NCBI GenBank assembly: GCA_016875535.1
Contig: VGPF01000013.1
Location: 1-47,778, forward strand
DNA from: Chloroflexota bacterium
Lineage (GTDB): Bacteria; Chloroflexota; Dehalococcoidia; SHYB01
DNA length: 47,778 bases
Reading direction: 5' to 3'
Under the pieces are notes generated by a model. The model did not search any database and was not told the origin of the DNA. It saw nothing but the letters and a program-made list of their open reading frames with translations. Positions within the stretch are counted from its first letter, which is position 1. Each line of letters begins with the position of its first letter. Below, piece by piece: positions 10,310-26,556 of this stretch. Position numbers and translations under genes: made by a program.

Positions 10310-11011
10310 ATGTCTCCCCCTCGCCAGGCCGCTACATCGTCCCTCTCCGTCATCGCCATAGACGGCCCCGTCGCCTCCGGTAAATCCACCGTCGGCCTGC
10401 GCGTCGCCGCCCGCCTCGGCTACCGATTCCTGGATACCGGCGTCATGTACCGCTCCGTCACCCTCGCGGCGCTGGAGCGCGAAGTATCCCTGGAGGATGC
10501 GGCGGCATTGGCCCGCGTCGCCGAAACACTGCCCCTGCGCCTGGGCGAGATCGGCCCGGATGGAGCGCCGCCTCATGTTTATCTCGATGGCCGTGATATC
10601 ACTAAAGCCCTTGTCGCCCCCGCCGTAGACCGCGCCGTCTCCCAAGTCTCCGCCGTTCCCGGCGTGCGAAAGGCCATGGTCGAAAAGCAGCGCCGGATGG
10701 CGAAGGCCGGCCGCATCGTCATGATCGGCCGCGATATCGGCACCGTCGTCCTCCCGGATGCGCCGCTCAAGTTCTACCTCGTCGCCTCCGCCGAAGAGCG
10801 CGCCCGGCGTCGCTTCGAGGAGCGCCGCCGGCGCGGCGAGCGCGTGGACTATCAAGCCGTCCTGGACGACCTCAAACGCCGCGATAGGCTCGATAGCGAA
10901 CGCGCCACATCCCCCCTCAAGCCCGCCTCTGACGCCAGCCACCTCAACACCGATGGACTCTCCATTGACCAAGTCGTGGACGCCATCTGCGCCCTGGCGG
11001 TCCGTCCATGA
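10310..11011 (+). CDS. cmk: Cytidylate kinase
   Basis: A 233-residue P-loop kinase that phosphorylates CMP and dCMP with ATP for nucleotide supply. The Walker A motif GPVASGKST is at about residues 17-25, followed by FLDTGVMYRSVT (the Asp-Thr-Gly-Met-Tyr-Arg signature of Cmk), an IGRDIGTVVLPDA segment with the nucleotide-binding Arg-Asp, and an Arg-rich lid (EERARRRFEERRRRGE). Length is right for the short Cmk type. It overlaps plsC by four bases (ATGA), a pairing seen in many genomes. Confidence 0.96.
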   Translation: MSPPRQAATSSLSVIAIDGPVASGKSTVGLRVAARLGYRFLDTGVMYRSVTLAALEREVSLEDAAALARVAETLPLRLGEIGPDGAPPHVYLDGRDITKALVAPAVDRAVSQVSAVPGVRKAMVEKQRRMAKAGRIVMIGRDIGTVVLPDAPLKFYLVASAEERARRRFEERRRRGERVDYQAVLDDLKRRDRLDSERATSPLKPASDASHLNTDGLSIDQVVDAICALAVRP

Positions 11012-23755: not shown

Positions 23756-24763
23756 GTGACAACAAACGGCTCGGGAAATCTCCTCCTGGATGTCCAGGAC
23801 CTGCGGACCTATTTCTACACCCACGCGGGCACCGTGAAGGCCGTGGACGGCGTGAGTTGGCAGCTCAACGAAGGTGAAACCCTCGCCCTCGTGGGCGAAA
23901 GCGGCTCGGGCAAAAGCGTCAGCGCCCTGAGCGTCATGCGCCTCATCCCATCGCCGCCGGGAAAGATCGTCAGCGGCAAGATCCTCTTCCAAGGCAAGGA
24001 CCTCCTGAAGTTGGACCAGAAGGGGATCCGGAGCGTTCGCGGTAACAAGATGGCCATGGTCTTCCAGGAGCCCATGACCTCCCTCAACCCCGTCCTCACC
24101 ATCCGCCGCCAGCTCACGGAGACCTTGGAGCTCCACCTGAATATGAGCAAGAAGGCGGCTAAGGACCGGGCCATCGAGCTCCTCGGAATGGTCGGCATTC
24201 CGGACGCCGCCCGCCGCGTTGACGATTACCCCCACCAGTTCAGCGGCGGCATGCGCCAACGCGTCATGATCGCCATCGCCCTGGCCTGCAATCCCAAGCT
24301 CATCATCGCCGACGAGCCCACCACCGCGCTCGACGTGACCATCCAGGCCCAGGTGCTGGAAGTGATCAAGAACCTCTCCGAGCGCTTCAACACCGCCGTC
24401 ATGATCATCACCCACAACCTCGGCATCGTCGCCCGCCACGCCGATCGAGTGAACGTCATGTACGCCGGCCATATCATCGAGACCGCCTCCGCCAAGGACA
24501 CCTACGCCGACCCGGCTCACCCATACACCCTGGGCCTCCTCCAATCCGTCCCCCGCCTGGACGAGCCGCGCAAGCACCGCCTGGTCCCCATCGAAGGCTC
24601 TCCCCCCGATCTCACCAACCTGCCGAAAGGCTGCCCGTTCCGCCCGCGCTGCACCTTCGCCGTTGACCGCTGCGCCGAAGAGAACCCCGCCCTCATGCCC
24701 GTCGGCGATAAGCACTGGGCCGCATGCTGGGTTGATGTAAAAACTAGGAGGCCACGCCCGTGA
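23756..24763 (+). CDS. oppD: Oligopeptide/dipeptide ABC transporter ATP-binding protein (OppD/DppD type)
   Basis: 335 residues from a GTG preceded by GAGAGGGGG; an in-frame ATG at 23726 lacks a ribosome site. Walker [10 protein letters not shown]-loop [11 protein letters not shown], signature FSGGMRQR, Walker [13 protein letters not shown] and H-loop ITHNLG are intact. The C-terminal oligopeptide-transporter domain carries the Cys cluster [19 protein letters not shown], known in this family to bind an iron-sulfur cluster in some members. It powers import with OppF; overlapping GTGA links them. The membrane permeases OppB and OppC are not beside it, so they must be encoded elsewhere. Confidence 0.95.
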
Positions 24764-25794
24764 CCACCCAAGCGCCACCCAAGCCGCTTCACGGCGGCGA
24801 TTCCGGGAAGACCAAGCTCGGCGATACGCTCCTTGAGGTGCGCAAACTCAAGATGTATTTCCCCGTCACCCAGGGCATCGTCTTCCAGCGGAAGATCGCG
24901 GACGTCAAGGCCGTGGACGGGATTGATTTCACCATCAAGAAGGGCGAAACCCTGGGCCTGGTGGGCGAAAGCGGCTGCGGCAAGACCACCACCGGCCGCG
25001 CCGTCCTCCAGCTCCATCGCCCCAGCGGCGGAGAGGTCCTCTTTGAGGGCCAAGACCTCACCAAGCTCAATACCAAACAGATGCGCTCCCTCCGCCGCCA
25101 GATGCAGATCATCTTCCAGGACCCCTACGGCTCCCTGAACCCCCGCATGACGGCGGGTGGCATCATCGGCGAGCCGATGGTCATCCACGGCCTGGCCGCC
25201 TCCAAGAAAGAGCGCCTGGACCGCGTGGCCGAGCTGCTCACCACCGTCGGCCTTGCACCCTATATGCGCGATCGCTATCCCCATGAGTTCAGCGGCGGCC
25301 AGCGCCAGCGCATCGGCATCGCCCGCGCCCTCGCCGTCAACCCATCCTTCCTCGTCTGCGATGAGCCGGTCTCCGCCCTCGATGTCTCCATCCAGGCCCA
25401 GGTCATCAACCTCCTGGAGAAGCTCCAGGAAGAGCTCCATCTCACCTATCTCTTCATCGCCCACGACCTCGCCGTCGTCCGCCACATCAGCGACCGCATC
25501 TGCGTCATGTACCTGGGAAAAACGATGGAGCTTGCGACCCGGGAAGAGATCTACGAGAACCCCCTGCATCCCTATACCAAGGCTCTCCTCTCCGCCGTTC
25601 CCATCCCCGATCCGGTGGCCGATTCCAAGCGCGAGCGCATCATCCTTACCGGCGATGTGCCCAGCCCCCTGCGCCCGCCCGCCGGGTGCGTCTTCCACAC
25701 GCGCTGCCCCATCGCCATTGACCAGTGCAAACAGGCCATCCCCGAATGGCGCGAGGCGAGCCCCGGCCACTTCGTCGCCTGCCACCGCGTCTAA
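24760..25794 (+). CDS. oppF: Oligopeptide/dipeptide ABC transporter ATP-binding protein (OppF/DppF type)
   Basis: 344 residues, GTG start overlapping the oppD stop. Walker [11 protein letters not shown]-loop [13 protein letters not shown], signature FSGGQRQR, Walker [14 protein letters not shown]-loop IAHDLAVV. The C-terminal domain has [18 protein letters not shown]. The Gly-Cys-Gly-Lys P-loop and the longer N-terminus ([24 protein letters not shown]) are typical of the F subunit. Together with oppD it forms the nucleotide-binding heterodimer, and it could serve several of the orphan SBPs in this window. Confidence 0.95.
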
Positions 25795-25816: not shown

Positions 25817-25850
25817 AGAGGCCCCGGTGTGAACCGGGGCCTCTTTGTTT
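25817..25850 (+). terminator. Rho-independent terminator after oppF
   Basis: A 12-base perfect stem AGAGGCCCCGGT (25817-25828) and complement (25833-25844), loop GTGA, then TTGTTT. Confidence 0.9.
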
Positions 25851-25873: not shown

Positions 25874-25903
25874 TTGACACTTCCGACTATCACATGCTAT
25901 ATA
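25874..25903 (+). promoter_or_regulatory. Strong promoter driving the structured intergenic RNA
   Basis: TTGACA at 25874-25879 and TATATA at 25898-25903 with an 18-base spacer; TGC just before the -10 makes it an extended element. It starts directly after the oppF terminator, points right, and no ORF with a ribosome site follows until lepA. Confidence 0.75.
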
Positions 25904-25909
25904 TAGACG

Positions 25910-26314
25910 TGTAAGCCTTCGCCAGGACAGCGAGCCGGGAAGGTGTGACCGCTAAGGCGCGCGGCCGTGCGCCCAACGCAGTCATGCCTTCCCTTTTTCT
26001 TTGTCCGGCGTTGTGCGGGCGGTCGCGGTGCGCCGCGCCTAGGAGGCGTGCCGTTGCAGTCTGAGCAAGGCTTGCGCGAAACGTCGGTGGTAGTAGAGGT
26101 GTCGCGAAGAGCGGTCGGTCGGATAGCGGCGCGATGCGCGTCCCGCCCGTGAGCGGGGCGGGCGAGGAGGCATGACGACTACATACCCGTAGGCTCACCG
26201 CGAGCGTGACCGGCTGACACCAGCGTCGCCGAGGAAGCTCCGAGCGCCAACCCTGCATCCCTACAAACCTCGGAGCAGTGGGCCTGCCCATCCTGTAGCA
26301 GTGGGAACTGCTAC
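25910..26314 (+). ncRNA. Candidate structured noncoding RNA, family unrecognised
   Basis: About 400 bases without a credible ORF but with nested complementary segments. Bases 25920-25930 pair with 26001-26010 (one bulged A). Inside, 25937-25949 pairs with 25981-25993 over 13 bases with two G-U pairs, enclosing GGCGCGC/GTGCGCC. Then 26026-26034 pairs with 26045-26053, again with two G-U pairs. Further on are CCCGCCC/GGGCGGG, GCTG-ACAC-CAGC, GCTCCGAG (26237-26244) with CTCGGAGC (26269-26276), and an 8-base stem with a GGGA tetraloop at 26295-26314. The G-U pairs suggest RNA rather than DNA palindromes. It lacks recognisable RNase P, tmRNA or SRP core sequences. The 3' end is uncertain; no T-run follows 26314. 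Confidence 0.55.
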
Positions 26315-26556
26315 GTTAAACGCTCGCAAATCTCGTCCACGTCCCTCCCCTAGACCGTCCGCACAACGCTTCCCACCGCGACACCTCACCAACCAAAGCG
26401 ACAAGCAACAAAAGACAAAAGGAGGCGAAAAATAAAAGGCAGATCCGCCACAGAAGCATAATGCTGACAACCCTTGGCAAGTCGGGCAAGTGCCTCTAGC
26501 AACCAAGAGTCGGATATGGGGTCTCCGCATCTCCCCCTGTGCTACACTGGAATCCC
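26315..26556. other. Intergenic stretch before lepA
   Basis: Mostly purine/pyrimidine-skewed sequence with an A-rich block near 26400-26435 and no ORF that looks real. A TACACT hexamer at 26543-26548 lies eight bases before the lepA ATG and could be the -10 of a leaderless lepA transcript; no clear -35 was found. It may also carry the unrecognised 3' part of the RNA described upstream. Confidence 0.4.

Follow-up and report, generated by a model that had tools for sequence, protein, structure and literature searches.

The window analysed here is a stretch of 47,778 nucleotides from a Chloroflexota bacterium (contig VGPF01000013.1; genome G000), and the feature described lies between oppF and lepA (Table 1). 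Downstream of the predicted terminator of oppF, which the earlier note had also placed there, a promoter-like box is followed by a structured non-coding sequence of about 520 nt. The stretch between the two genes is GC-rich and folds far better than its shuffles, with a minimum free energy of -206 kcal/mol compared with -188 +/- 5.9 kcal/mol (z = -3.1; 0 of 100 shuffles), and the helices named in the earlier note (25937-25949/25981-25993, GCTCCGAG/CTCGGAGC and the GGGA hairpin at 26295-26314) are present in this fold. That note had described about 400 bases ending at 26314. The feature itself is real but extends over approximately 25874-26425, because other copies show the 3' helix strand (26353-26369) and a conserved tail to about 26425. 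At the place of the strong promoter claimed after the terminator, TTGACA (25874-25879) and TATATA (25898-25903), with an 18 nt spacer, can be read directly; a consensus scanner that needs T at position 6 of the -10 element listed no promoter here. A 133-aa antisense frame and a 61-aa sense frame were broken or unrecognisable in other copies, so a protein-coding reading was rejected and the non-coding assignment was kept.

Table 1 Features of the oppF-lepA locus in the window and parts of the predicted RNA
Feature	Position	Strand	Basis
oppF	24760-25794		ABC_tran and oligo_HPY domains
oppF terminator	25817-25844		Terminator prediction
Promoter-like boxes, TTGACA-18-TATATA	25874..25903	+	Direct reading; left end of shared unit
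Structured RNA body	25907..26430	+	99% identical second locus with a different promoter spacer
5' domain: AGGACA/UGUCC helix around GGGAAGGUGUGAC/GUCAUGCCUUCCC, U-rich internal loop	25915..26007	+	Predicted fold
Closing helix P1, 5' strand GCGUUGUGCGGGCGGUC	26008..26024	+	Pairs with 26353-26369; covariation in 21 copies
Conserved core: CUCAC, GCGAGCGU-GAC (core helix 5' strand), hairpin GGC-U-GAC/GUC-GCC	26194..26230	+	Alignment A1, pair counts
Variable core hairpins, including GCUCCGAG/CUCGGAGC and GUAGCAGU-GGGA-ACUGCUAC (26295-26314); length and sequence differ among copies	26237..26314	+	Fold
Core helix 3' strand GUUAAACGCUCGC, then A	26315..26328	+	Alignment, pair counts
Closing helix P1, 3' strand GACCGUCCGCACAACGC	26353..26369	+	Covariation
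U-poor, A/C-rich tail ending in AAAAGGAGG (26417-26425), without a start codon after it	26370..26425	+	Tail counts
lepA	from about 26557		LepA_C domain

The window reached the gathering score of no Rfam 15 family, and lower-scoring hits were limited to terminator-like matches attributable to chance. With relaxed thresholds the window and 12 loci carrying copies still gave no match; this included HEARO (RF02033), and the OLE, GOLLD and ROOL models likewise matched neither the window nor the tested copies. ARAGORN reported no tmRNA in the window, and literature searches returned no described repeat RNA of Chloroflexota. The suggested HEARO/omega-RNA identity found no support, the HEARO model being unmatched by the tested copies even under relaxed thresholds. 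A diverged member of a known group (HEARO/omega RNA, group I or II intron, RNase P, tmRNA, OLE, GOLLD or ROOL) would be of similar size and complexity, but the Rfam and ARAGORN results, together with the missing reverse transcriptase (see below), make it extremely improbable.

What the earlier reading had missed is that the sequence is a dispersed repeat. Genome G000 (2.52 Mb, 86 contigs) contains 28 DNA matches to the window sequence, including a full copy at 99% on contig C33, partial copies at the ends of contigs C8, C75, C40 and C3, and many matches at 75-90%; the copies as a whole range from 99% to about 45% alike. A 16-mer of the conserved 5' domain was found in 15 places of this genome with at most one mismatch. 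The aligned copies have a common layout in which the loops vary and the 5' domain is of more than one type, the window type being common to about 15 copies. A second dispersed repeat, beginning with GTAGGGGCGCGGGGCACGCGCCC, was often seen in the variable loops or just 3' of the RNA (L029, L009, L014, L006 and others).

The architecture common to the copies consists of a TTGACR box at the left end, the long-range closing helix P1 (26008-26024/26353-26369) and a core (26194-26327 in the window) with the consensus CUCAC, GCGAGNNU-GRC, GGC-W-GAC-N4(6)-GUC-GCY, variable hairpins and GYU-NN-A-NNCUCGC-A. Pairing in the core was counted in an alignment of 17 cores (A1), covering an eight-pair core helix and a six-pair hairpin. 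Pairing was found in 95.6% of the cells of the helix, 100% of those of the hairpin and 97.5% of both together, compared with only 21-48% when the register was slid by 1-3 columns. Double changes were present in 17 cells, against 6.0 in shuffles (0 of 500 reached the observed number), and four pairs were changed on both sides. RNAalifold independently recovered the core helix and added a G-R-C/G-Y-U extension (G-U, A-U/G-C and C-G pairs), whose second pair covaries between A-U and G-C, nine to seven. From a full-length alignment of one subfamily it recovered the core alone, because the outer parts were misaligned.

The closing helix comprises 10-15 pairs, with sequences that differ between copies, for example UUGCGAUGCAGACGG/CCGUCUGCAUCGCAA in C3b. 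Across 21 copies, 83% of its cells were paired and 62 were double-changed, compared with 67% and 19.7 when the 3' strands were swapped between copies (0 of 1000 swaps reached the observed values); since the strands were aligned by hand on a conserved GG with the pairing register picked by eye, and the sequences are related, these counts lean towards pairing. Duplex energies calculated without an anchor for the entire 5' and 3' halves showed no cognate signal, the duplexes being over-extended, and the anchored hand count was used instead. P1 is missing from the lowest-energy fold of the lone window copy, and forcing P1 and the core together costs about 3 kcal/mol of 247 in a constrained fold. 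A GUGGG/CCCAC pseudoknot beyond P1, judged by eye, was dropped since it fits one subfamily only. The check for compensatory changes thus found both the core helix and P1 covarying among copies, and the element is a non-coding sequence of several hundred nucleotides held by covarying long-range helices, as in large structured non-coding RNAs.

The distribution of the family was found to be narrow. A covariance model of the core (R1) detected at least 20 copies in G000 and 12 in G003, a genome of the same genus, several of them at contig ends, and 0 copies in 117 other genomes of the class. The two other genera of the family and one genus of the order were also without a copy when more candidates were scored. 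Across 84,980 GTDB species genomes, an IUPAC core pattern matched only CAMAVV01 contigs and a single Labrys site, the latter taken as chance because its closing strand was absent by eye; the viral contigs of IMG/VR contained no core match. CAMAVV01, deposited under the name Thermoflexus hugenholtzii JAD2, is a metagenome-assembled genome and apparently the sister genome G003 itself. Apparently, this is an uncatalogued, high-copy structured RNA family of one sampled genus. Its two covarying helices, one-genus distribution and absence from Rfam bear out the lineage-specific long RNA that had been proposed.

In another genus of the family (G001), oppF and lepA lie side by side with about 109 bp between them and no RNA. 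Downstream of oppF, G003 has a methylase-like frame and an IS3-like transposase (rve; L143:392-1204, contig C1), and the 288 bp examined upstream of its lepA are unrelated sequence, also with no RNA. Homologues had been expected upstream of lepA, but in these two genomes the gene is kept and the RNA is absent; the homologues found are paralogues elsewhere in the genome. A cis element linked to lepA or oppF was rejected, since relatives lack the RNA there and other copies have unrelated neighbours. More generally, the neighbour genes of the copies are unrelated and lie on either strand, the downstream gene being on the same strand in the majority of copies and on the opposite one in about a third. 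A truncated copy, L049 (G000, contig C43, near 10600-10700, minus strand), has only the 5' domain, without a TTGACA box, and lies a short distance before a 269-aa ORF that has an AGGAGG site; it is possibly an exapted 5' UTR. The position of this copy, close to the start of a gene that has a ribosome-binding site of its own, and the majority of same-strand downstream genes are what a cis-acting, riboswitch-like leader would give. However, the third of downstream genes in opposite orientation, the unrelated neighbours and a purine motif that is rarely followed by a start codon leave such a leader very improbable. Because the neighbours are unrelated and on both strands, a cis leader is unlikely, and a free-standing RNA acting in trans would be the most economical reading.

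Presence and absence at orthologous sites were observed in two comparisons: the oppF-lepA site is empty in G001, and in G003 about 100 bp without any RNA separate the left flank of C54 from the right flank of C76, which fits the insertion of a copy at this place followed by its recombination with another copy. For copies C30, C166 and C7 of G003, the two flanks are on different contigs in G000, although some of these split flanks may be assembly breaks. Judged from such comparisons, copies appear to sit at rearrangement points. Three sites carry a copy in both species, at mobA (C11/g3C137) in the same orientation and at EF-G (C46/g3C109) and HAD (C3b/g3C48) in opposite orientations, and mobility explains these no better than long-standing residence or a preference for certain sites. 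Within a genome the best match of a copy reaches up to 99-100%, compared with mostly 42-45% in the sister species, while the genes flanking the copies are mostly 75-88% identical between the two species. The copies form species-specific subfamilies, and the site differences taken with the within-genome likeness are signs of repeated species-specific spread.

The window copy, C33 and C8 have bodies that are 98-99% alike and promoter spacers that differ, which suggests that the bodies have been homogenised by recombination. The left limit of identity varies with the copy pair, lying near +1, at -35 or further out, and the intergenic flanks are very diverged. No terminal inverted repeats, defined ends or target duplications were seen among the copies. 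With none of these features seen, and neither of two candidate enzyme classes found (see below), mobility is inferred from distribution only.

Proteins that might move or bind the RNA were searched for with control genomes. No Y1 transposase (PF01797) was found in the genome (control positive in 5 genomes), so mobilisation of the RAYT or IS200/605 type was rejected. No reverse transcriptase (PF00078) was found in G000, G003, G001 or G002 (control positive in 3 genomes), and a retro-element, retron or group II intron was rejected on this ground. A CsrB/RsmZ-type sponge was likewise rejected for want of CsrA (PF02599; none in the genome, control positive in 3 genomes). The N-terminal RRXRR domain of IscB (PF14239) had no match in the genome, and none in the control genomes either. 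The mobiliser search with working controls covered Y1 transposases and reverse transcriptases. A non-autonomous MITE-like DNA transposon, whose hairpins act as DNA only and whose RNA is irrelevant, would be dispersed, intergenic, high-copy and lineage-specific, as this family is. It is nevertheless improbable, given long-range pairs that are kept through double changes with G-U allowed, the constant position of a promoter-like box at the left end, and the lack of terminal inverted repeats and of a Y1 transposase.

TTGAC[AG] was present at the matching place in 24 of 24 tabulated copies (variants TTAACA once and TGGACA once), the search pattern itself having been based on this box. The sequence between box and body differs between copies. 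In window-like copies a -10-like hexamer follows 17-18 nt after the box. In another subfamily the best -10-like hexamer (TATNNT-like) is only 8-9 nt from TTGACR, so the box there may be something other than a -35 element, for example the end of the element. Some copies carry a near-palindrome, TACTATGCATAGTA, at the box region, which is perhaps an operator.

The tail outside P1 has a composition of its own, with 10.7% U compared with 19.8% in the next block, and is rich in A. AGGAG, usually as AAAGGAG, occurs in 21 of 29 tails (2.3 expected from shuffles), and in 17 of these 21 no start codon follows within 14 nt. Upstream of the core, 17 of 24 copies also carry AGGAGG, AAGGAG or AAGGAAG (3.1 expected); because close relatives and near-identical copies are included, neither the tail count nor the internal-motif count is fully independent. 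Beyond P1 even copies that are otherwise near-identical have diverged, and AGGAG is still kept. We take the tail AAAAGGAGG and the internal purine motifs to correspond to the sequence that is generally complementary to the 16S rRNA 3' end. The RNA might thus act in trans as a complex docking on the 30S subunit through its AAAGGAG tail, often with a second, internal AGGAGG, a role that we put forward tentatively and regard as doubtful. The putative docking motif is the only functional clue that the sequence offers, and in the window copy the hypothetical 30S-docking motif would be AAAGGAGG. In the predicted fold the GGAGGC of the window tail can also pair with the 5' GCCUUC, which could form a cis alternative to ribosome docking.

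Taken together, the copies probably belong to a family of free-standing structured-RNA genes that amplifies in a mobile-like way and is homogenised by recombination, with selection still acting on each copy as RNA. Each would be transcribed from its own promoter into an RNA of about 500 nt, closed by P1 and with an unstructured purine-rich tail outside it; copies would multiply by duplication or by in-trans mobilisation by an enzyme, and the transcribed bodies would be kept alike by gene conversion between loci. A stronger version, in which a selfish element has as its sole payload a promoter-driven RNA of about 500 nt docking on the 16S 3' end through Shine-Dalgarno-like motifs without start codons, and has been spread to at least 20 loci by a host or mobile enzyme, seems unlikely. 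Possible, but not favoured, is that the copies are regulatory or housekeeping RNAs of the host that act in trans, a multigene family that is OLE-like but many-copy, was enlarged by duplication, is held alike through gene conversion and is not itself mobile. P1, core, box and tail persist in nearly all full copies, unlike in decaying non-autonomous transposons, some sites are common to both species, and neither a Y1 transposase nor a reverse transcriptase was found. Against this, the differing sites, species-specific subfamilies and empty sites would need frequent dispersal to new intergenic places.

Under the preferred reading of an amplifying, mobile-like family, the question is how an RNA gene without a protein spreads with neither a reverse transcriptase nor a Y1 transposase; if the RNA is directed to the ribosome, it would be a new way to touch translation. 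At least 20 divergent paralogues in one genome provide built-in covariation data, and they are open to folding, pull-down and deletion experiments. Large structured RNAs with no known function are rare in bacteria, and the present one matches none of the well-studied examples OLE, GOLLD and ROOL.

HEARO, the omega RNA of IscB/IsrB, is structured and can occur as many dispersed, partly ORF-less copies. The present family resembles it as a dispersed multi-copy structured RNA but differs in that the tested copies have no HEARO match. REPIN-type elements are much shorter than about 500 nt and depend on Y1 (RAYT) transposases. HEARO RNA binds the nickase IsrB (PMC12286853), and REPINs are dispersed, non-autonomous, intergenic, multi-copy structured sequences (PMC3116915). 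The family shares these properties with REP, BIME, REPIN and MITE elements, and is unlike them in its length of about 500 nt, its RNA covariation, its promoter-like box and the lack of a Y1 transposase. OLE is a large (about 600 nt) structured non-coding bacterial RNA for which a link to the small-subunit protein bS21 has been reported (PMC12054373; PMC12286853), and its carriers are mainly Gram-positive Bacillota, extremophiles and anaerobes (PMC12054373); the present RNA is also large, structured and non-coding, but occurs in one genus, in many copies and without an Rfam match. GOLLD binds ribosomes in pull-downs, and phages and prophages carry the genes for GOLLD and ROOL, in many cases close to tRNA islands (PMC12286853). 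These two are also large ornate RNAs with long-range helices, whereas the copies described here are chromosomal and intergenic, with no IMG/VR or Rfam match. Given the link of OLE to a small-subunit protein and of GOLLD to ribosome pull-down, a docking role would have company. The family is therefore known in kind, as a large structured bacterial non-coding RNA, and unusual in its copy number and apparent mobility.
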